A stretch of DNA of 64,000 bases from Thermosulfurimonas sp. F29 (GCF_019688735.1 NZ_JAIFYA010000001.1:558001-622000); one strand, 5' to 3'; shown: positions 6,895 through 53,085, counted from the stretch's first letter. Translations and numbers: made by a program. Notes: generated by a model from the sequence alone, not told the origin.

Positions 6895-7323
6895 TAGAAG
6901 GAGACCCGCACCTTGAATAATTTCAAAAAAATTCTGGGATAAGGTTATCAATTTTAGGCCAGACAATCAAGGGCAGAGCCCGAAATGGAGGGCTCTTCGA
7001 GGGAGTATCCTCCCCCTTTTCAGAACTCAGAAGAAAACACAAAATTCATAGTTTAAGGTCAAAAAGCAATAATGGAGAGGATTTAAAAGTTAAGTGACGA
7101 TACAAAATCAATCCGAATCTCATAAAAAAGTGGAAATTTTTAAATACTACTTGACATGCCAGAAACTTATAGGATACTCTTACATTAAACAAGATAAGAA
7201 ACTATGAATACCTGAAAAAGAGGTTATTATCTTGAGATTGCGAGAAATAAAGTTCACCCCTTCATGGGGAAGACTGGCAAGAGGGGAGATCAGAGCAAAT
7301 AAAAACAACAAAAGGAGGGGATT
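6895..7323. other. AT-rich intergenic region between divergent plsY and cytochrome genes
   Basis: About 430 bases, clearly richer in A+T than the surroundings. It holds two short inverted repeats near plsY (AGAGCCC/GGGCTCT at 6975-6996 and GGGAG/CTCCC at 7001-7013), which could fold in the plsY leader, and a sigma-70-like promoter pointing to the cytochrome gene (annotated separately). No open frame with a ribosome-binding site was seen in it. Confidence 0.6.
7151..7178 (+). promoter_or_regulatory. candidate sigma-70 promoter for the split-Soret-type cytochrome
   Basis: Perfect -35 TTGACA at 7151-7156, then a 16-base gap to a -10-like GATACT (7173-7178). It lies in the AT-rich intergenic region, leaving an untranslated leader of about 140 bases before the cytochrome ATG. 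Inference from consensus only. Confidence 0.45.
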
Positions 7324-8085
7324 ATGAGGTTATCAAGGAGGGACTTTCTGGCCACATCGGGATTGATGATGGGGGTAATGGCGGCGGGGAAGCTCTTTGA
7401 GGGAAAGGCCTGGGCCTATCCTTACGGATCCGAGTTCGAATATGCGGAACTCGATCCGGATGAGGTGGCCTGGGAGGCGTACCGGCACTACTTCAAGAAG
7501 TGGTGTTGTTCCACGGTGCTTGAGGGGCTGGTGAGTCAGTTGCGGAAGACGGTAGGCGGGCCCTGGAACGATTTCCCCGTGGACGCCTATCGCTGGGCGC
7601 ACGGAGGTCTGGCCGGATGGGGGGCACTTTGCGGTACTCTAACAGGGGCGGGAATCGTGATCGGTCTGGTCACCAAGGATACGGATACCGCCGAGGCCAT
7701 GGTGAACGACATTGCCTTCTTCTATTCGTATACTCCTCTTCCTAAGTACGAACCGCGCAAGATTCTCAAGGCCGAGATCCAGAACATGAGCGTGGCGGGG
7801 ACTCCGGTGTGTCACATCTCCGTGGGGCGCTGGATGGCCGCCGAGGGCGTGGCCTTCCTTACCGACGAGCGGGCGGAAAGGTGTGCCCGCCTTTCGGCGG
7901 ATATAGCCCGTCAGGCGGCGCTTTACCTCAACGAGTGGTTGCGGAACGGCAAGAAGTACAAGCCGCGCAACAGGATGCTTTACAACCTTCTGCACAACGG
8001 CATAACCTCTCAGAACAACTGCATGGACTGTCACGGCCAGAATGTACCGAACCCCGAGGAGACCTACGCGACCCTTAAAAAGTAA
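7324..8085 (+). CDS. Tat-exported split-Soret-type cytochrome (C_GCAxxG_C_C family) with one CXXCH
   Basis: 253 residues; start supported by AAAGGAGGGG just upstream. A twin-arginine signal (SRRDFLATSG, residues 4-13) predicts folded export to the periplasm. The body resembles the split-Soret cytochrome c of Desulfovibrio: Cys 61/62, 103, 163 and 187 are candidates for an iron-sulfur cluster, and CMDCH at 233-237 is one heme c attachment motif near the C-terminus. It probably takes part in periplasmic electron transfer. It is followed by a stem-loop and then the YeeE-TusA-DsrE cluster on the same strand, which suggests a link to sulfur-compound conversion; that link is inferred from position only. 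Confidence 0.75.
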   Translation: MRLSRRDFLATSGLMMGVMAAGKLFEGKAWAYPYGSEFEYAELDPDEVAWEAYRHYFKKWCCSTVLEGLVSQLRKTVGGPWNDFPVDAYRWAHGGLAGWGALCGTLTGAGIVIGLVTKDTDTAEAMVNDIAFFYSYTPLPKYEPRKILKAEIQNMSVAGTPVCHISVGRWMAAEGVAFLTDERAERCARLSADIARQAALYLNEWLRNGKKYKPRNRMLYNLLHNGITSQNNCMDCHGQNVPNPEETYATLKK

Positions 8086-8113
8086 ATTTAAGTAAGTTAC
8101 ATCATTAAAAACT

Positions 8114-8148
8114 AATTAAGGGGGATCTTTTGGGGGTCCCCCTTAATT
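8114..8148 (+). terminator. stem-loop after the cytochrome gene
   Basis: Inverted repeat AATTAAGGGGG (8114-8124) and CCCCCTTAATT (8138-8148), a perfect 11-bp stem with a 13-base loop, 28 bases after the cytochrome stop. There is no long T run after it, so it may be a weak terminator or an RNA-stabilising hairpin separating the cytochrome from the next operon. Confidence 0.6.
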
Positions 8149-8247
8149 ATTGAATGTTAGAGACGATTAAACCCCAAAAAAATCTTTTTGGATCAGATTT
8201 AGAAAAAAAATTTATAAAAATGTGCTCAATTATTTAATTTATTCCAT

Positions 8248-8276
8248 TTGACAGGGAATAAGGTTTTTGCTAAAGA
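8248..8276 (+). promoter_or_regulatory. candidate promoter of the yeeE-tusA-dsrE operon
   Basis: TTGACA at 8248-8253 with a 17-base gap to TAAAGA (8271-8276). The -35 is perfect and the -10 is weak. It lies in the AT-rich gap 55 bases before the transporter ATG at 8331 and downstream of the stem-loop at 8114-8148. Confidence 0.4.
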
Positions 8277-8330
8277 GGTGGAGAAAGGTTTCCCCGTTCC
8301 GGCGGGAAAAAATTAGCAGGGAGGGGTTTT

Positions 8331-9491
8331 ATGGGTGCTCTTAAACGGACCTATGAAAATCTCTGTGCCAAACACTGGTCCCCCATGATGGGGGGGATAC
8401 TGCTGGCTTTTCTGGTGGTGGTATTGGAGGCATGGTATCGTCCGTGGGGAATTGTGGGGGGGCTTCGGAACTGGGCGGACTGGTTTTTTTATCACATAGG
8501 GCTTTATGATGAACCGCCGGCTTTACATCCCTTGTGGTCTTCCACCTCTTCCATTCTGGACATAGGTCTCATCTGGGGGGCTTTTATCTCCGCGGCTCTG
8601 GGGCGGGAGTTTGCCATTCGAATTCCCCCGCCCATCGAATTCGTTAAGGCTGTGGTGGCCGGGATCCTCATGGGCATAGGGGCTTCTCTCGCCATGGGCT
8701 GTAATGTGGGGGGCTTTTACATGGCGGTGAACAATCTCGCCGCTAACGGTTTCATCATGCTCATCGGTCTTATTTTCGGGGTCATCCTGGCCATAAAGTA
8801 TCTCTACTGGGAGCTCGAGCACTTTCCGAGTTCCGGGGGTTTTGAAATAGGTTTTCAGAAGATTGATCCCTTTCTGGGGGTAATCGCTCTGGCGGGACTT
8901 CTTGTGGCGACCCGGGCCTATTTCGGAAGTGAGCTCGATCGGGGAGAAGTGATGGGCGGCTGTCTCATTCTGGCCGCGGGTATCGGTTATGTGATGCACC
9001 GGAGTCGTTTCTGCATGGTGAACGCCCTGCGGGAGCCTTTCATGACGGGTAATGCAGAAATGGGCAGGGCCCTCACGGTGAGTATTATTCTTTCGGCCAT
9101 AGGGATTGCCATTCTCAAGTACAACGGCGTGCGCCCGGAAAGCGCCTATGTGACCCCCACCTTCATTCAGGGGGCCCTTATCGGAGGTTTCATCTTCGGC
9201 TTCGGGATGACCGTGGCCGGAGGGTGCGGTTCCGGGAGCCTGTGGCGAGTGGGCGAGGGGCAGGTCAAGCTTATGATTGTGGCTACCGTTTTTGGTCTTA
9301 GCAACTCGATTGTACGGCATATCTTCGCTGAATACGATGTTATTGAGAATGGCTATCTTGGCAAGGCTGTTTTTATGCCTGATTATCTTGGATATGCCGG
9401 GACCATCCTTCTTATTGCTTTGATAGTGCTGGTATGGTATATCGTGATCGACTGGAATGAGGAAAGCAACAGGCTGGTTCTTGAAATGTAG
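8331..9491 (+). CDS. YeeE/YedE-family sulfur (thiosulfate-type) transporter
   Basis: 386 residues, about ten hydrophobic segments, inner membrane. Two internal halves each carry the family signature GxGxxxxxGCxxG: GIGASLAMGCNVGG (Cys 124) and GFGMTVAGGCGSGS (Cys 299); Cys 228 in HRSRFCMVNA is also characteristic. In known YeeE proteins such cysteines pass thiosulfate through the pore by transient S-S-H-S interactions. The start has a strong Shine-Dalgarno (GGGAGGGG). First gene of an operon with tusA, two DsrE-type genes and a 59-codon gene. This is the layout of the yedE-tusA-dsrE (YTD) cluster reported as a marker of sulfur-disproportionating bacteria. The substrate (thiosulfate, sulfide, polysulfide or selenium compound) is not fixed by sequence. 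Confidence 0.9.
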   Translation: MGALKRTYENLCAKHWSPMMGGILLAFLVVVLEAWYRPWGIVGGLRNWADWFFYHIGLYDEPPALHPLWSSTSSILDIGLIWGAFISAALGREFAIRIPPPIEFVKAVVAGILMGIGASLAMGCNVGGFYMAVNNLAANGFIMLIGLIFGVILAIKYLYWELEHFPSSGGFEIGFQKIDPFLGVIALAGLLVATRAYFGSELDRGEVMGGCLILAAGIGYVMHRSRFCMVNALREPFMTGNAEMGRALTVSIILSAIGIAILKYNGVRPESAYVTPTFIQGALIGGFIFGFGMTVAGGCGSGSLWRVGEGQVKLMIVATVFGLSNSIVRHIFAEYDVIENGYLGKAVFMPDYLGYAGTILLIALIVLVWYIVIDWNEESNRLVLEM

Positions 9492-9547
9492 TGAAAAGGT
9501 TTGGAAAAGCGTCTTAAAAAAATAAAATACTTGAAAGGAGGTAGAAC

Positions 9548-9799
9548 ATGGGAGTCAATCTGGATGAAATCAAACCGGACATGACCATCGATTGTAAGGG
9601 GCTTTCCTGTCCTATGCCACTTCTTAAGACCAAGAAGGCCATTCAGAAGCTTCAGCCCGGGCAGATCCTCGAGGTTCTCGGCACCGACCCCGGTTCCAAG
9701 AACGACATCCCGGGCTGGTGCGAGCGGGCCGGACACGAGTATCTCGGGGTAAAAGAGGACGCCGGTTTTATGCGCTTTTACATCAAGAAAGGGCAGTAA
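9548..9799 (+). CDS. tusA: TusA-family sulfur carrier protein
   Basis: 83 residues. The diagnostic CPMP motif of TusA/SirA proteins is at residues 21-24, preceded by DCKGLS; Cys 21 would carry the persulfide. The rest (LQPGQILEVLGTDPGSKNDIPGWC) matches the family fold. TusA hands sulfane sulfur between proteins in tRNA thiolation, molybdenum cofactor synthesis or dissimilatory sulfur oxidation. Its place directly after a YeeE transporter suggests that it accepts the imported sulfur. Shine-Dalgarno AAAGGAGGT seven bases before ATG. Confidence 0.95.
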   Translation: MGVNLDEIKPDMTIDCKGLSCPMPLLKTKKAIQKLQPGQILEVLGTDPGSKNDIPGWCERAGHEYLGVKEDAGFMRFYIKKGQ

Positions 9800-9827
9800 A
9801 AGTTAATTCCATTTAAGGAGGGGAGCA

Positions 9828-10160
9828 ATGGGTAAGGATCCTGATAAGCTGGGTATATTTGTAACCACGCCTCAGTACATGCCTCATCTGGTTAAGATTG
9901 TGGAGGCCGCTCAGCGTGCCGGTAAAAAGGTAAAAGTGTTTTTCACCTTTAAGGCCATCCATCTCACGAAACAGCCCGACTTCCCGAAACTGGTTCAGAT
10001 GATCCCCGAGGACGACCTCGCCATTTGCGCGGACAGCTACACCTGCGAAGGCTTCGATGTGGAAACGGATGTTCCCGGTGGGATGTCCCCCAAGCAGATG
10101 CGCACCCAGGCCTTTCACGGAGCGATCCTGGAAGAATGCGGTAAGTATTTGGTGCTCTAA
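9828..10160 (+). CDS. DsrE/DsrF-like sulfur-transfer protein
   Basis: 110 residues. A DsrE-like alpha/beta fold is suggested by the opening beta strand (KLGIFVTTPQYMPHLVKIVEAA), the KVKVFFTFKAIHL segment and a cysteine-bearing strand (LAICADSYTC, Cys 67 and 73). Cys 104 near the C-terminus is another candidate sulfur-carrying residue. DsrE-type proteins exchange persulfide with TusA in sulfur oxidisers. Strong Shine-Dalgarno (AAGGAGGGG). It is the third gene of the operon, 28 bases after tusA. Confidence 0.8.
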   Translation: MGKDPDKLGIFVTTPQYMPHLVKIVEAAQRAGKKVKVFFTFKAIHLTKQPDFPKLVQMIPEDDLAICADSYTCEGFDVETDVPGGMSPKQMRTQAFHGAILEECGKYLVL

Positions 10161-10186
10161 AAAATTATTCACAAGGAGGGGTGAAA

Positions 10187-10546
10187 ATGTCTCTCAAGAT
10201 ATACTTTTTGATCGCCAATCGGCAGTATATCACCGATGGAATTCGTTCCACCCTGGGACAGGCGGTGGAAAACCACTACTCTCATGCTTGTGTTTTCTAC
10301 AACAAGATGCCCCGTCTCACCGAGTATGTAAAGGAAAACATTGAGTGGATTAGGGACATGGAAGGTGATGTGTTTGCGGTGGTGGACACCATGGATGAGG
10401 AGGCCAAAAAGTACAATGTAGAGGAGGCTGGACTCACTCCTATAACTCTGGAAGAGCTGGCTCAACGGTTGAAGGAAGCCGATGTTATCATTGGCTACGG
10501 GCTTCCCAAACAGAAACACGGTCCGCCTCCGGCCTGTGCGGACTAG
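10187..10546 (+). CDS. second DsrE-like protein of the sulfur cluster
   Basis: 119 residues from ATG 10187; AAGGAGGG ends six bases before it, so it is preferred over the in-frame GTG at 10181. It opens with a strand-like LKIYFLIANRQY and has a DsrE-type arrangement, but the conserved catalytic Cys pattern is weak: Cys 35 (HACVFYN) and Cys 117 in a C-terminal PPPACAD tail. It may be a partner subunit of the preceding protein or a diverged copy. The YTD clusters include conserved genes of unknown function and this is probably one of them. Confidence 0.65.
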   Translation: MSLKIYFLIANRQYITDGIRSTLGQAVENHYSHACVFYNKMPRLTEYVKENIEWIRDMEGDVFAVVDTMDEEAKKYNVEEAGLTPITLEELAQRLKEADVIIGYGLPKQKHGPPPACAD

Positions 10547-10590
10547 GCTAAGGTTTTAAAACCTCAATCTCGAAGGCAGGAGGGGAAACA

Positions 10591-10770
10591 ATGAAAATTC
10601 TTCATGTATACAGGAACGAACCCAACGAGGAAGTTCAAAAGTTGGTGTCCATCCTCAACGAGGGTAACGAGGCCATGGAGTTCAAGCTTTACGAGGCCAA
10701 GGACGACGCCGACTACGATCGGCTCATCCAGATGATCTGGGAGGCCGACAAGACCATAAGCTGGTGGTAG
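10591..10770 (+). CDS. small conserved-context protein ending the sulfur cluster (59 residues)
   Basis: Open frame from ATG 10591 to TAG 10768-10770, preceded by AGGAGGGG at ideal spacing. It encodes a 59-residue soluble, acidic protein that begins MKILHVYRNEPNEEVQKLV and ends in TISWW. It has no cysteine and no membrane segment. The beta-strand/helix start resembles the opening of the DsrE-like proteins, so it could be a short DsrE-fold relative; that is speculation. Position after dsrE genes and before the terminator shows that it belongs to the operon. Confidence 0.75.
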   Translation: MKILHVYRNEPNEEVQKLVSILNEGNEAMEFKLYEAKDDADYDRLIQMIWEADKTISWW

Positions 10771-10800
10771 TTCGGGTTTCGGGAGAATTTGTCCCTAGGG

Positions 10801-10834
10801 CTCCGGGCGTCCTCAGGGCGCCCGGAGTTTTTTT
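10801..10834 (+). terminator. rho-independent terminator of the sulfur-cluster operon
   Basis: Perfect 9-bp stem CTCCGGGCG (10801-10809) / CGCCCGGAG (10819-10827) followed by seven T (10828-10834). It is a textbook intrinsic terminator 31 bases after the last gene of the operon. The following gene's ATG begins at 10835, directly after the T run. Confidence 0.92.
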
Positions 10835-12469
10835 ATGAAACCCCAAATTCTTCTGGAGAGCCTTCCAGACCGAATTCTAGCACGGGCGAGGTCCCTGCTA
10901 GAAAGGGGAGCTATAGCCCACCTCGAAAGAGGGGAGAGCGAGCTCCTCGCCTCCGTTCAGGGCACCACCCCCGAACCTTACGAGGTCCGCATCCGGTTTT
11001 CCCGGGAGGACATAACCGACTGGAGCTGCACCTGCCCCTACGAAGGGGAGGTGTGCAAGCATGTGGCGGCGGTGGTGCTTAAGGTCTTCGGTCCCGGGAA
11101 GATCCGGCCCGGACGCCGGCGTAAAACCAAAGTGGAGCTGGCCAGGGAGATTCTCACAAAACTCAACGCCGAGGAACTCCGGGAATTCGTGGGTGAACTG
11201 GCGGAGCGGGAAAAGGCGGTCCGGGACGCCCTTCTGGCCCGTTTTTCCGCCTATGCCGATCCGGGCACCCGCAGCCTGGAGGCAAAGTACAACTTCATCT
11301 TCCGGGCCATTCTCCAGGGCTATAAGAGACAAGGGTTCGTCCACTACTGGGAGACCCTGGAGTTCGGACAGAGGGTGAGCGAGCTCGTGGAGTCGGGCCG
11401 GAAGCTCGTGGCGGAGGGAAAAACGGAGGAGGCCTTAGCCCTGGCGAAAGCCGTGCTCCAGGGCTGGATCAAGGCACTGGACGCGATGGATGACTCCGGG
11501 GGAAGTACCGGAGTGGTGCTCGCTGAAGTGCTCGATCTGATGGTGCAGATCTACCGAGCCGGGCGCACGGAGGTCTTCGAGTTCCTCCTGGAAGAAGCCC
11601 GGAAGGATCGATATCGACAGTGGGGAATAGATCTCAACCTGGCCGAGGCCCTGGTGGAAATGGCCGAGACCCGTTCGCAGGCCAAAAAACTGCGGGACTT
11701 TCTCGACCCTCATCCTTACGGCCAAGAAATCCTGGCTCGCCTCCTGGCTCGTTTCTTCCCCGAGGAATACGAAGAGTTCGTGTGGAAGGAGGAAAACCTC
11801 CTCCAGGTCTGGAAATTCCATCTGGAGCGGCTGGAAGGGGAAAAACGCCTGGAGGCGATCCTGCCTTACCTAGAGCACCTCCTTTCCTCTAAGGCTTTTC
11901 CTTCTCGCCTTAAGGCCGAAGTCCTGTGGAGAAAGGCCCGGGTTCTGCGGCTTCTCGGGCGCAACGAGGAGGCCCTTTCGGTGCTCGAGACCCTCTTCAA
12001 GAGGGAACCCTCCCTGGAGGTGGTGCGCGAAATACAGGATCTTGCCTCCCCTGAAAGGTGGCGAAAGATAAGGCCGGGGTTGGAAGGGCGCCTCCGCAAG
12101 GACGAGCTCTTCCGTTTTCTCGTGGAAGAGGAGGAGTGGGAGAGGGCGCTCGCCCTGCTTGAGAAGGAGGGCTGTCAGATCCTTTCCACCTCCTCGACCC
12201 TTGAGCGGTTGAGAGATCTTCTCCTGAGGTTTCCCGAGGGGCTCCGGGAAAGGGCCCTGAGGAAGGTGCTCGAGATTTCGGTGGACTTTTTCGAAGAGCC
12301 GGGCTCCAGGGATCGGTACCGGTATCACCTTTCCGTTATCCGTCCGGTTCTGGAGCGTCTGGAGCCGGAGGAGATACGGGATTTTCTGGACGGCCTGGTG
12401 AAGAGATATCCCCGCCGGCGGGCCCTGCGGGAGGAGGCGGAGGCCCTCGGGAGGAAGCTCATTCCCTGA
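10835..12469 (+). CDS. SWIM zinc finger protein
   Basis: 544 residues. The N-terminal SWIM motif CxC-x(n)-CxH is seen as CTCPYEGEVCKHVAAVVL (about residues 69-86). The rest is helical and repetitive, with stretches such as EALALAKAVLQGWIK and RNEEALSVLETLFKRE that look like degenerate helix-turn-helix (TPR-like) repeats. SWIM domains bind DNA or protein; many bacterial ones accompany SWF/SNF helicases, but none is present here. The ATG at 10835 abuts the T run of the preceding terminator and has no Shine-Dalgarno, so a leaderless transcript or a later start is possible. It overlaps convergent hpt by 11 bases. Confidence 0.8.
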   Translation: MKPQILLESLPDRILARARSLLERGAIAHLERGESELLASVQGTTPEPYEVRIRFSREDITDWSCTCPYEGEVCKHVAAVVLKVFGPGKIRPGRRRKTKVELAREILTKLNAEELREFVGELAEREKAVRDALLARFSAYADPGTRSLEAKYNFIFRAILQGYKRQGFVHYWETLEFGQRVSELVESGRKLVAEGKTEEALALAKAVLQGWIKALDAMDDSGGSTGVVLAEVLDLMVQIYRAGRTEVFEFLLEEARKDRYRQWGIDLNLAEALVEMAETRSQAKKLRDFLDPHPYGQEILARLLARFFPEEYEEFVWKEENLLQVWKFHLERLEGEKRLEAILPYLEHLLSSKAFPSRLKAEVLWRKARVLRLLGRNEEALSVLETLFKREPSLEVVREIQDLASPERWRKIRPGLEGRLRKDELFRFLVEEEEWERALALLEKEGCQILSTSSTLERLRDLLLRFPEGLRERALRKVLEISVDFFEEPGSRDRYRYHLSVIRPVLERLEPEEIRDFLDGLVKRYPRRRALREEAEALGRKLIP

Positions 12470-49173: not shown

Positions 49174-49698
49174 ATGAGAAACGGATGGTCTCCCTATCTC
49201 GGAGGGGCCCTTACCGGACTCCTCCTGGTGCTTTCGGTGCTGGTGACCTATCAGCTTTTCGGTCACCCCCGTTATCTCGGGACCTCCACGGCCTATGTGC
49301 GGGTCTCCGGAATGATCGAAAAGACGATCTCGCCGGAGGCTGTAACGCGGAACGAGTACTACCGTGAAGAGGGGACGGGGATCGACTGGAAGGTCATGCT
49401 GGTGCTGGGGGTGCCGCTGGGTGTCCTCATCGCGGCCCTCAGGAACGGCGAGTTCCGTCCCCGCTGGGTCCCCGGGGTGTGGCGGGAGCGTTTCGGGGAT
49501 TCTCCGGTAGTGCGGGCCCTGGGGGCCTTCGTGGGGGGATTCCTCCTCATTTACGGCGCCAGACTGGCCGGAGGATGCCCCAGCGGGCACGGTCTTTCGG
49601 GAATGAGTCAGCTTGCGGCCAGTGCCTTCATCGTGGTGGCCGGGTTCTTCGCCGGAGGCATTCCCCTGGCCCTAATCCTTTACGGAAGAAGGAGGTAA
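49174..49698 (+). CDS. half-size YeeE/YedE-family membrane protein (first of a pair)
   Basis: 174 residues, about four hydrophobic helices. It has a single family motif: GARLAGGCPSGHGLSG near residues 128-143. A large loop (residues 30-70) lies between the first two helices. Half-size YeeE proteins work in pairs, together equal to one full-length transporter such as the one at 8.3 kb. Strong Shine-Dalgarno (AAGGAGGTGAG). Three bases from the next gene. Confidence 0.82.
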   Translation: MRNGWSPYLGGALTGLLLVLSVLVTYQLFGHPRYLGTSTAYVRVSGMIEKTISPEAVTRNEYYREEGTGIDWKVMLVLGVPLGVLIAALRNGEFRPRWVPGVWRERFGDSPVVRALGAFVGGFLLIYGARLAGGCPSGHGLSGMSQLAASAFIVVAGFFAGGIPLALILYGRRR

Positions 49699-49701
49699 GC
49701 C

Positions 49702-50226
49702 ATGGAACTCTTGGTGGGACTCGTAACCGGCATAATCTGGGGATACATCTTTCAGCGGGCCCGGATCGTGCGTTTTGAAAAACACGCCGGGCTCCTCACC
49801 CTTACCGATCTTACGGTGCTCAAGTTTCTCCTTTCCGGAGTGGTGGTGGGGGCCATCGGGATCCAGCTTCTCACCACCCTGGGGCTGGCCCCCTATCACC
49901 TCAAGCCCACCCATGTGGCGGCCAACTTCGTGGGCGGGGTGATCTACGGCCTGGGCTGGGCCTTCCTGGGTTACTGCCCGGGGACCATGCCCGGCGCCGT
50001 GGGCGAAGGGTCCTTCGACGCCCTGTTCGGAATTCTGGGGGGACTTCTCGGGGCCATGGCCTACGCCCACACCTATCCCTTCTGGAAGAAGACCCTCCTC
50101 GGGATCGGCGCCTACGGAAAGGTCTCGCTCCCCATGCTGCTTCACCTTCCTCCGCTTCTGGTAGCGGTGGTGTTCGCAGGCCTCCTCTTGGCCTTCATCG
50201 TTTTTCTTGAGAAAATGGGCTGGTGA
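49702..50226 (+). CDS. half-size YeeE/YedE-family membrane protein (second of a pair)
   Basis: 174 residues, about four or five helices. Family motif GGVIYGLGWAFLGYCPGT, with the Cys followed by PGTMPGAVGEG. The preceding gene has CPSGHG and this one CPGTMPG; together they provide the two pore cysteines. The stop overlaps pyrK (GTGA), so the sulfur pair is cotranscribed with pyrimidine genes, probably by chance fusion of operons. Confidence 0.82.
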   Translation: MELLVGLVTGIIWGYIFQRARIVRFEKHAGLLTLTDLTVLKFLLSGVVVGAIGIQLLTTLGLAPYHLKPTHVAANFVGGVIYGLGWAFLGYCPGTMPGAVGEGSFDALFGILGGLLGAMAYAHTYPFWKKTLLGIGAYGKVSLPMLLHLPPLLVAVVFAGLLLAFIVFLEKMGW

Positions 50227-52218: not shown

Positions 52219-53085
52219 TCATGCCGCAACTCTCTCCCGAACCCCTGGCAAATTGCCCCCAAAATAAACCTCATCCGGTGTCCTCCCTCCTAACCCAAAA
52301 TGCGGCCTCTCCCCATTGTAGCTCCCAATCCACCTCCCTATCGCCTCCCGAGCTTCCTTCCCTCCCTCAAATTCCAGTAAATATACGCACTCGTACTTCA
52401 GCGACCTCCAAAAACGCTCCACCATTCGGTTGTCTTGCCATCGCCCACGACCGTCCATCGAAATCGCTACCCCTGCCTCCTCTAATACCTCCAAAAACTC
52501 CCTGCTCGTGTATTGACTCCCTTGATCCGTGTTGAATATCGCCGGCCTCCCGTACTTCTCCAACGCCTCCTCCAGTACCTGGCGGCAAAATCCAGCCTCC
52601 ATCGTGTTCGATAACCCCCACGAAAGCACCTTCCGACTGTACCAGTCTAGCACTACCACCAGATAAAGATAGCCTCCCCTTACGGGAATGTATGTAATGT
52701 CCGAACACCATACCTCATTGGGCCTCTCCACCTTCCGATCCCTCAACAAATAAGGATAAGTCCGATGATCTTTCGCTTTTTCACTGGTCCTCCTGGGCCT
52801 GGGATAAAATACCTTGAGCCCCATAAGCCGCATCAGACGCTGCACCCTCTTGCGGTTCACCCTGTACCCTTCTTGCCTCAAAACCTCCGTCATCCTCCGG
52901 CTCCCATAGTAAGGCTTCTTAAGATAAATCTGGTCGATCCTCCGCATCAGCTCAAGGTTCTCCGGTCTCTCTCCTCGACCTCGATAGTAATAACCGGAAC
53001 GACTGAAACCCAATAGCTCGCACTGCCGACTAACGCTTATCTCCTCTTCCTTAGAGATCGCCCCCTTCTTCTCCTCCAGGCTCAA
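52219..53085 (-). CDS. IS3-family transposase OrfB (DDE integrase)
   Basis: 288 residues, TTG start. DDE catalytic triad visible: Asp in WCSDITYIPVRGG, Asp in FNTDQGSQYTS, and Glu in NRMVERFWRSLKYE, 35 residues later as in the D-35-E family. N-terminal HTH_21 region SVSRQCELLGFSRSGYYYR. Full length with no stop, so the IS may be active. Its start overlaps orfA by four bases, and the upstream in-phase codons allow fusion by -1 frameshifting. Confidence 0.95.
   Translation of the reverse strand: MSLEEKKGAISKEEEISVSRQCELLGFSRSGYYYRGRGERPENLELMRRIDQIYLKKPYYGSRRMTEVLRQEGYRVNRKRVQRLMRLMGLKVFYPRPRRTSEKAKDHRTYPYLLRDRKVERPNEVWCSDITYIPVRGGYLYLVVVLDWYSRKVLSWGLSNTMEAGFCRQVLEEALEKYGRPAIFNTDQGSQYTSREFLEVLEEAGVAISMDGRGRWQDNRMVERFWRSLKYECVYLLEFEGGKEAREAIGRWIGSYNGERPHFGLGGRTPDEVYFGGNLPGVRERVAA

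Follow-up and report, generated by a model that had tools for sequence, protein, structure and literature searches.

Does the cytochrome that lies directly upstream of a set of sulfur genes in Thermosulfurimonas sp. F29 belong with them, and do those genes mark their carrier as a sulfur disproportionator? A sequence-only reading of the window, which is the whole stretch of 64,000 nucleotides analysed here (C1:558001-622000 in a nine-contig genome of 2,345,565 bases), had described a complete YeeE-TusA-DsrE-DsrE-like cluster beside a Tat-exported cytochrome, had noted that such clusters are reported as a genetic marker of sulfur-disproportionating bacteria, and had proposed that sulfur import, persulfide relay, and periplasmic electron transfer are linked at this place.

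Genes of the locus

Six genes lie on the plus strand in the order cytochrome, yeeE, tusA, a dsrE-like gene, a second small gene, and a 59-codon gene. The features of the locus are as follows.

7151..7178, plus strand: promoter-like TTGACA-16-GATACT upstream of the cytochrome (consensus match only)
7324..8085, plus strand: Tat-type, one-haem split-Soret-like cytochrome (TIGR01409, one CXXCH, NF047622, PDB 1H21)
8113..8149, plus strand: 17-bp hairpin behind the cytochrome, probable terminator (predicted; -24 kcal/mol, z=-3.8)
8248..8276, plus strand: promoter-like TTGACA-17-TAAAGA with extended -10 TG, yeeE operon (from conservation; putative function)
8331..9491, plus strand: YeeE/YedE family sulfur-compound transporter, 386 aa (PF04143, 3.7e-53)
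9548..9799, plus strand: TusA sulfurtransferase, 83 aa, CPMP active-site motif (PF01206, 5.3e-29; 61% to E. aureum TusA)
9828..10160, plus strand: DsrE type II, 110 aa (64% to the DsrE-II of E. aureum GS; catalytic Cys67 present in each of 30 homologues)
10187..10546, plus strand: DsrF type II, 119 aa (predicted DsrE/F fold; 53% to E. aureum GS DsrF-II)
10591..10770, plus strand: DsrH type II, 59 aa (54% to E. aureum GS DsrH-II)
10797..10835, plus strand: strong intrinsic terminator, 16-bp hairpin and T7 (predicted; -28.6 kcal/mol, z=-4.8)

Gene calls and Pfam/NCBIfam matches put all six genes where the sequence-only reading had them. Its strong ribosome sites were recovered as a GGAGG-type site before each start, its cytochrome with a single CXXCH and its own stem-loop as the SRRDFL and CMDCH motifs and the 17-bp hairpin, and its closing terminator as the 16-bp hairpin with T7. 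The best start of the second small gene is the ATG at 10187, not the GTG at 10181.

A published cluster of type II

In the five sulfur genes we recognize the YTD cluster of the literature, now classed as yeeE-tusA-dsrEFH type II; there is nothing new in the cluster itself. The YTD cluster (yedE-tusA-dsrE-chp) was described in Desulfobacterota and Nitrospirota (PMC12998232), and a second paper assigned the dsrE-like gene and the two hypothetical ones to DsrEFH type II (PMC13293266). All of its members (yeeE/yedE, tusA, dsrE, and the two conserved small genes) are present together in the window, with the same genes and order as in PMC12998232. Against the locus of Candidatus Electronema aureum GS (L171), from which type II was defined and characterized biochemically, identities of the window proteins are 61% for TusA, 64% for DsrE, 53% for DsrF, and 54% for DsrH (E 2e-21 to 3e-55), and Cys67 of DsrE, whose numbering is identical to that in PMC13293266, is kept. 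The strand of yeeE differs: it is opposite in E. aureum and in most Desulfobulbaceae-type loci, whereas in the window yeeE comes first and shares the strand of the other four genes.

The earlier description of two DsrE-like products was right in kind. The first matches DsrE sequence models weakly (E=0.04-0.12), and the predicted fold of the second matches YchN and DsrE/F-like structures (6e-5 and 5.6e-4), which indicates that this protein probably belongs to the DsrE/F superfamily. The 59-codon gene is, by sequence, the putative DsrH-II; because its structural model is confident and has no significant fold match (best Foldseek 0.33), the name rests on homology. Compared with DsrE of Allochromatium vinosum (2hy5_A), the model gave a Z of 4.4, level with unrelated folds. 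DsrEFH type I of A. vinosum (PDB 2HY5) has, according to PMC13293266, the fold superfamily and the place in the relay in common with type II; it goes with oxidative DsrAB, and a profile of the window DsrE found nothing significant among PDB sequences.

Three side observations concern transporters and mobile genes. Two half-size genes of 174 aa each, both PF04143, form a second YeeE-type transporter at 49174-50226; behind them come a pyrK-like gene for electron transfer and a pyrD-like one (the latter assigned by eye). At 52219-53085 on the minus strand lies an IS3-type transposase-like ORF, recognized by eye only. Within the genus, the yeeE of the cluster (8331-9491) occurs in two variants, 89% identical to the window in G275 and G277 and 67-68% in G273, G274, and G276 (L075, L077, L078, L079, L112); because the flanking genes are mostly 85-95% identical within the genus, replacement of yeeE alone is suggested.

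Distribution and the marker question

Among 395 sampled genomes of the phylum, a DsrE-II match was found in 73 (40 of them strong), and in 25 of the 41 genomes of the order. In 79 of the 80 named loci the genes run tusA-dsrE-dsrF-dsrH, the remaining one (L192) stopping at dsrE; yeeE is a same-strand leader in about half of the 80 and divergent in most others. The named YTD loci include cable bacteria and cultured Desulfobulbus; Thermosulfurimonas entries are the named relatives nearest to the window.

The cluster was reported in all S0 disproportionators among the Desulfobacterota and Nitrospirota of PMC12998232, a list that includes T. dismutans, T. marina, and Thermosulfurimonas sp. F29 (the latter with S0 and thiosulfate), and also in strains with negative evidence. 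Another survey recorded it in just 25 of the 63 cultured disproportionators, and also in many sulfate reducers unable to disproportionate (PMC13293266). Both papers conclude that, taken alone, the cluster does not serve as a marker of disproportionation. By these published surveys the YTD cluster is not specific to disproportionators, and the marker claim stands insofar as the genes are the reported cluster, but not as to specificity, to which the cable bacteria in our own sample also speak.

The cytochrome and its clade

The cytochrome carries the Tat motif SRRDFL (TIGR01409 above cut-off) and one CXXCH (CMDCH at residues 233-237). Its closest solved structure is the split-Soret cytochrome c of Desulfovibrio desulfuricans ATCC 27774 (PDB 1H21, E=3.4e-24), with which it has in common a CHIS motif and the four C-GCAxxG-C-C cysteines (C61, C103, C163, and C187). 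By this homology and these cysteines, it belongs to the split-Soret superfamily in the broad sense. It is evidently not a classical split-Soret cytochrome: its match to NF047622 (E=1.7e-35, 122.8 bits) fails the equivalog cut-off of 400 bits, and it has one C-terminal CXXCH where the classical homologues inspected have two.

In our phylogenetic analysis, a one-haem clade of split-Soret homologues (support 98/93) stood apart from the classical class, whose members have two CXXCH motifs. One CXXCH is present in 33 of 34 members of the one-haem clade; the motif is lost in the other (L063), while L074 is a single-motif sequence, yet placed among the two-haem class. C61, C103, C163, C187, and H164 are conserved at 96-100% in both classes alike. 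In G145 we noted four split-Soret-like copies (L063, L094), of which one in the one-haem clade has CMQCD instead of CXXCH. In another genome (L212, G287/G330), a fragment of 57 C-terminal residues with 62% identity to the window cytochrome is probably a decayed or broken copy. The portions of the split-Soret literature available to us contain no link to disproportionation, and PMC12998232 makes no mention of a split-Soret protein or a cytochrome, whereas the window cluster has a cytochrome as its neighbor.

Transcription units and adjacency

A strong hairpin, differing in sequence, stands between the cytochrome and yeeE in all genus genomes with the cytochrome (the window and four others). The TTGACA before yeeE is invariant in six genus genomes, 3' of the hairpin where the cytochrome is present, and occurs also in T. 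dismutans S95 and in all five Thermodesulfatator-group genomes checked. Upstream of the cytochrome, a promoter-like site is present in some genus members only, its TTGACA also in two other genus genomes. A simple terminator scan missed both the hairpin after the cytochrome and that after the last gene, and gave two unrelated sites. Because a terminator and a yeeE promoter-like site, the latter conserved beyond the genus, lie between them, we conclude that the cytochrome and the yeeE operon form separate transcription units, with promoters and terminators that are predicted. A single operon of cytochrome and cluster was rejected, since a terminator and a promoter-like site lie between the two and they are not found side by side beyond the genus.

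In the genus, five genomes out of six (the window and four of the five others) have the cytochrome next to yeeE, with strand and order unchanged; in two of these four, a contig end truncates yeeE. The sixth, a 90%-complete assembly, has another gene before yeeE and gave no cytochrome match. Outside the genus, the comparison of gene neighborhoods gave the cytochrome beside the cluster in no genome found. The two are apart on one contig in G128, G204, G101, and G195, and on different contigs in G066, G145, and G240; in a comparison of seven other genomes (eight loci), no neighbor of the cytochrome is conserved at a constant place. In G247 a cytochrome 70% identical to that of the window lies apart from the cluster and adjoins an ammonium-transporter-like gene. 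No cytochrome was found in the flanks of the 80 named YTD loci, save in the one genus member with sufficient flank, and the disproportionator T. dismutans S95 has the cluster and no cytochrome match (in G272 and in the named record).

Co-occurrence with DsrE-II

A tie of another kind emerged from the genome survey. The one-haem clade is carried by 17 genomes of the 395-genome sample, and all 17 have a strong DsrE-II match, whereas the sample as a whole has a DsrE-II match in 73 of 395 (Fisher p=6e-14, a value that ignores shared ancestry). Other split-Soret matches occur in 32 genomes, classed by haem motifs in the fetched loci and by low similarity in the rest, and any DsrE match accompanies them in one. 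Within the order, all 12 carriers fall among the 25 DsrE-II genomes of 41 (one-sided p=7e-4, again ignoring shared ancestry), and all nine families with the one-haem clade are DsrE-II families. The genome with the C-terminal fragment (G330) has DsrE-II as well, and the clade is also present in E. aureum GS, a cable bacterium with sulfide oxidation under study. The relation is one-way: a cytochrome match was found in 17 of 50 cluster-bearing genomes (one weak, one a fragment). The contrast between one and two haems was first noticed in a smaller sample and then checked on the 395 genomes, which contain that sample, so that the second test depends in part on the first. Because the tests ignore shared ancestry, common descent in a few lineages is the main alternative to a functional tie. 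This co-occurrence appears to be unreported and is a modest, testable addition; the restriction of the one-haem clade, within the phylum sample, to cluster-bearing genomes suggests, but does not prove, a shared role in periplasmic electron transfer.

These observations bear on how the cytochrome is to be understood. If it formed one module with the cluster, it would accept the electrons released as sulfur is oxidized in the periplasm, and YeeE would import the product; the constant strand and order in the genus and the complete nesting of carriers and families within DsrE-II speak for this, but with adjacency confined to one genus, a terminator and a separate promoter-like site between the units, no cytochrome in T. 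dismutans S95 or most other YTD genomes, and p-values blind to ancestry, we regard it as rather doubtful. The proposed link between cytochrome and cluster is thereby reduced from one of position to the weaker one of co-occurrence. That the cytochrome works in some other process (e.g., nitrate or nitrite respiration, or redox buffering), its place next to yeeE being a chance arrangement from the ancestor of the genus, has a slightly less than even chance of being correct: elsewhere the gene is solitary or, in G247, beside the ammonium-transporter-like gene, and split-Soret mutants of Desulfovibrio alaskensis, which concern the classical family and not the one-haem clade, had no phenotype under the energetic conditions studied (PMC4215793). 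The strict nesting of the one-haem clade within YTD genomes argues against such an unrelated role. A bolder version, in which the clade would be a dedicated periplasmic carrier for the DsrEFH-II/reverse-DsrAB sulfur-oxidizing branch, its tie to the cluster functional across Desulfobacterota and its adjacency a matter of one genus, seems to us unlikely.

The sulfur relay

For the cluster itself, in vitro work on homologues gives good support to the claim of sulfur import and persulfide relay, which would hold for this organism by analogy. With E. aureum proteins, TusA was shown to persulfidate DsrE at Cys67, a Cys67Ser variant failing to react, and sulfur transfer from DsrEFH-II to DsrC was one-way (PMC13293266). 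In the genome of F29, a pair of neighboring NIR_SIR genes would fit dsrAB, and there is a DsrC that ends ...GACKMAGLPKPTGCV, with both C-terminal cysteines present; with TusA and DsrEFH-II, no gene of the relay is therefore missing.

We consider it very probable that the window cluster is a yeeE-tusA-dsrEFH type II operon for import of sulfane sulfur and persulfide relay to DsrC and reverse DsrAB, with the cytochrome as a separate unit. YeeE would import sulfane sulfur, presumably polysulfide or thiosulfate, into the cytoplasm, where TusA would accept it as a persulfide and pass it to Cys67 of DsrE in the DsrEFH-II heterotrimer. DsrEFH-II would hand the persulfide over to DsrC, and DsrC would deliver it to a reductive-type DsrAB, which may run in reverse in this organism and yield sulfite. 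Such a route would serve as the oxidative branch of disproportionation or of sulfur oxidation. Sulfur might also flow in another direction, because the transfer between TusA and DsrE is bidirectional in vitro, and the finding that the cable-bacterial proteins are not persulfidated by thiosulfate counts against this explanation (PMC13293266).

The YeeE and TusA families also have members in sulfur assimilation and thiolation (cf. YeeE-YeeD and TusA of E. coli), and the cluster might serve these rather than energy metabolism. We think this very improbable: scores of the TsuA/YeeE and selenium YedE models against the window YeeE are far below cut-off, dsrEFH-II accompanies reductive dsrAB in 74% of genomes (PMC13293266), and the cluster was reportedly overexpressed during thiosulfate disproportionation in Desulfolithobacter (PMC12998232).

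Beside this preferred reading of the cluster as an energy-related relay, the cytochrome would be an exported electron carrier of the one-haem split-Soret clade in its own transcription unit, and a role in the same sulfur metabolism is possible. The one-haem clade offers a concrete, testable candidate for the electron-transfer partner in the oxidative half of sulfur disproportionation.
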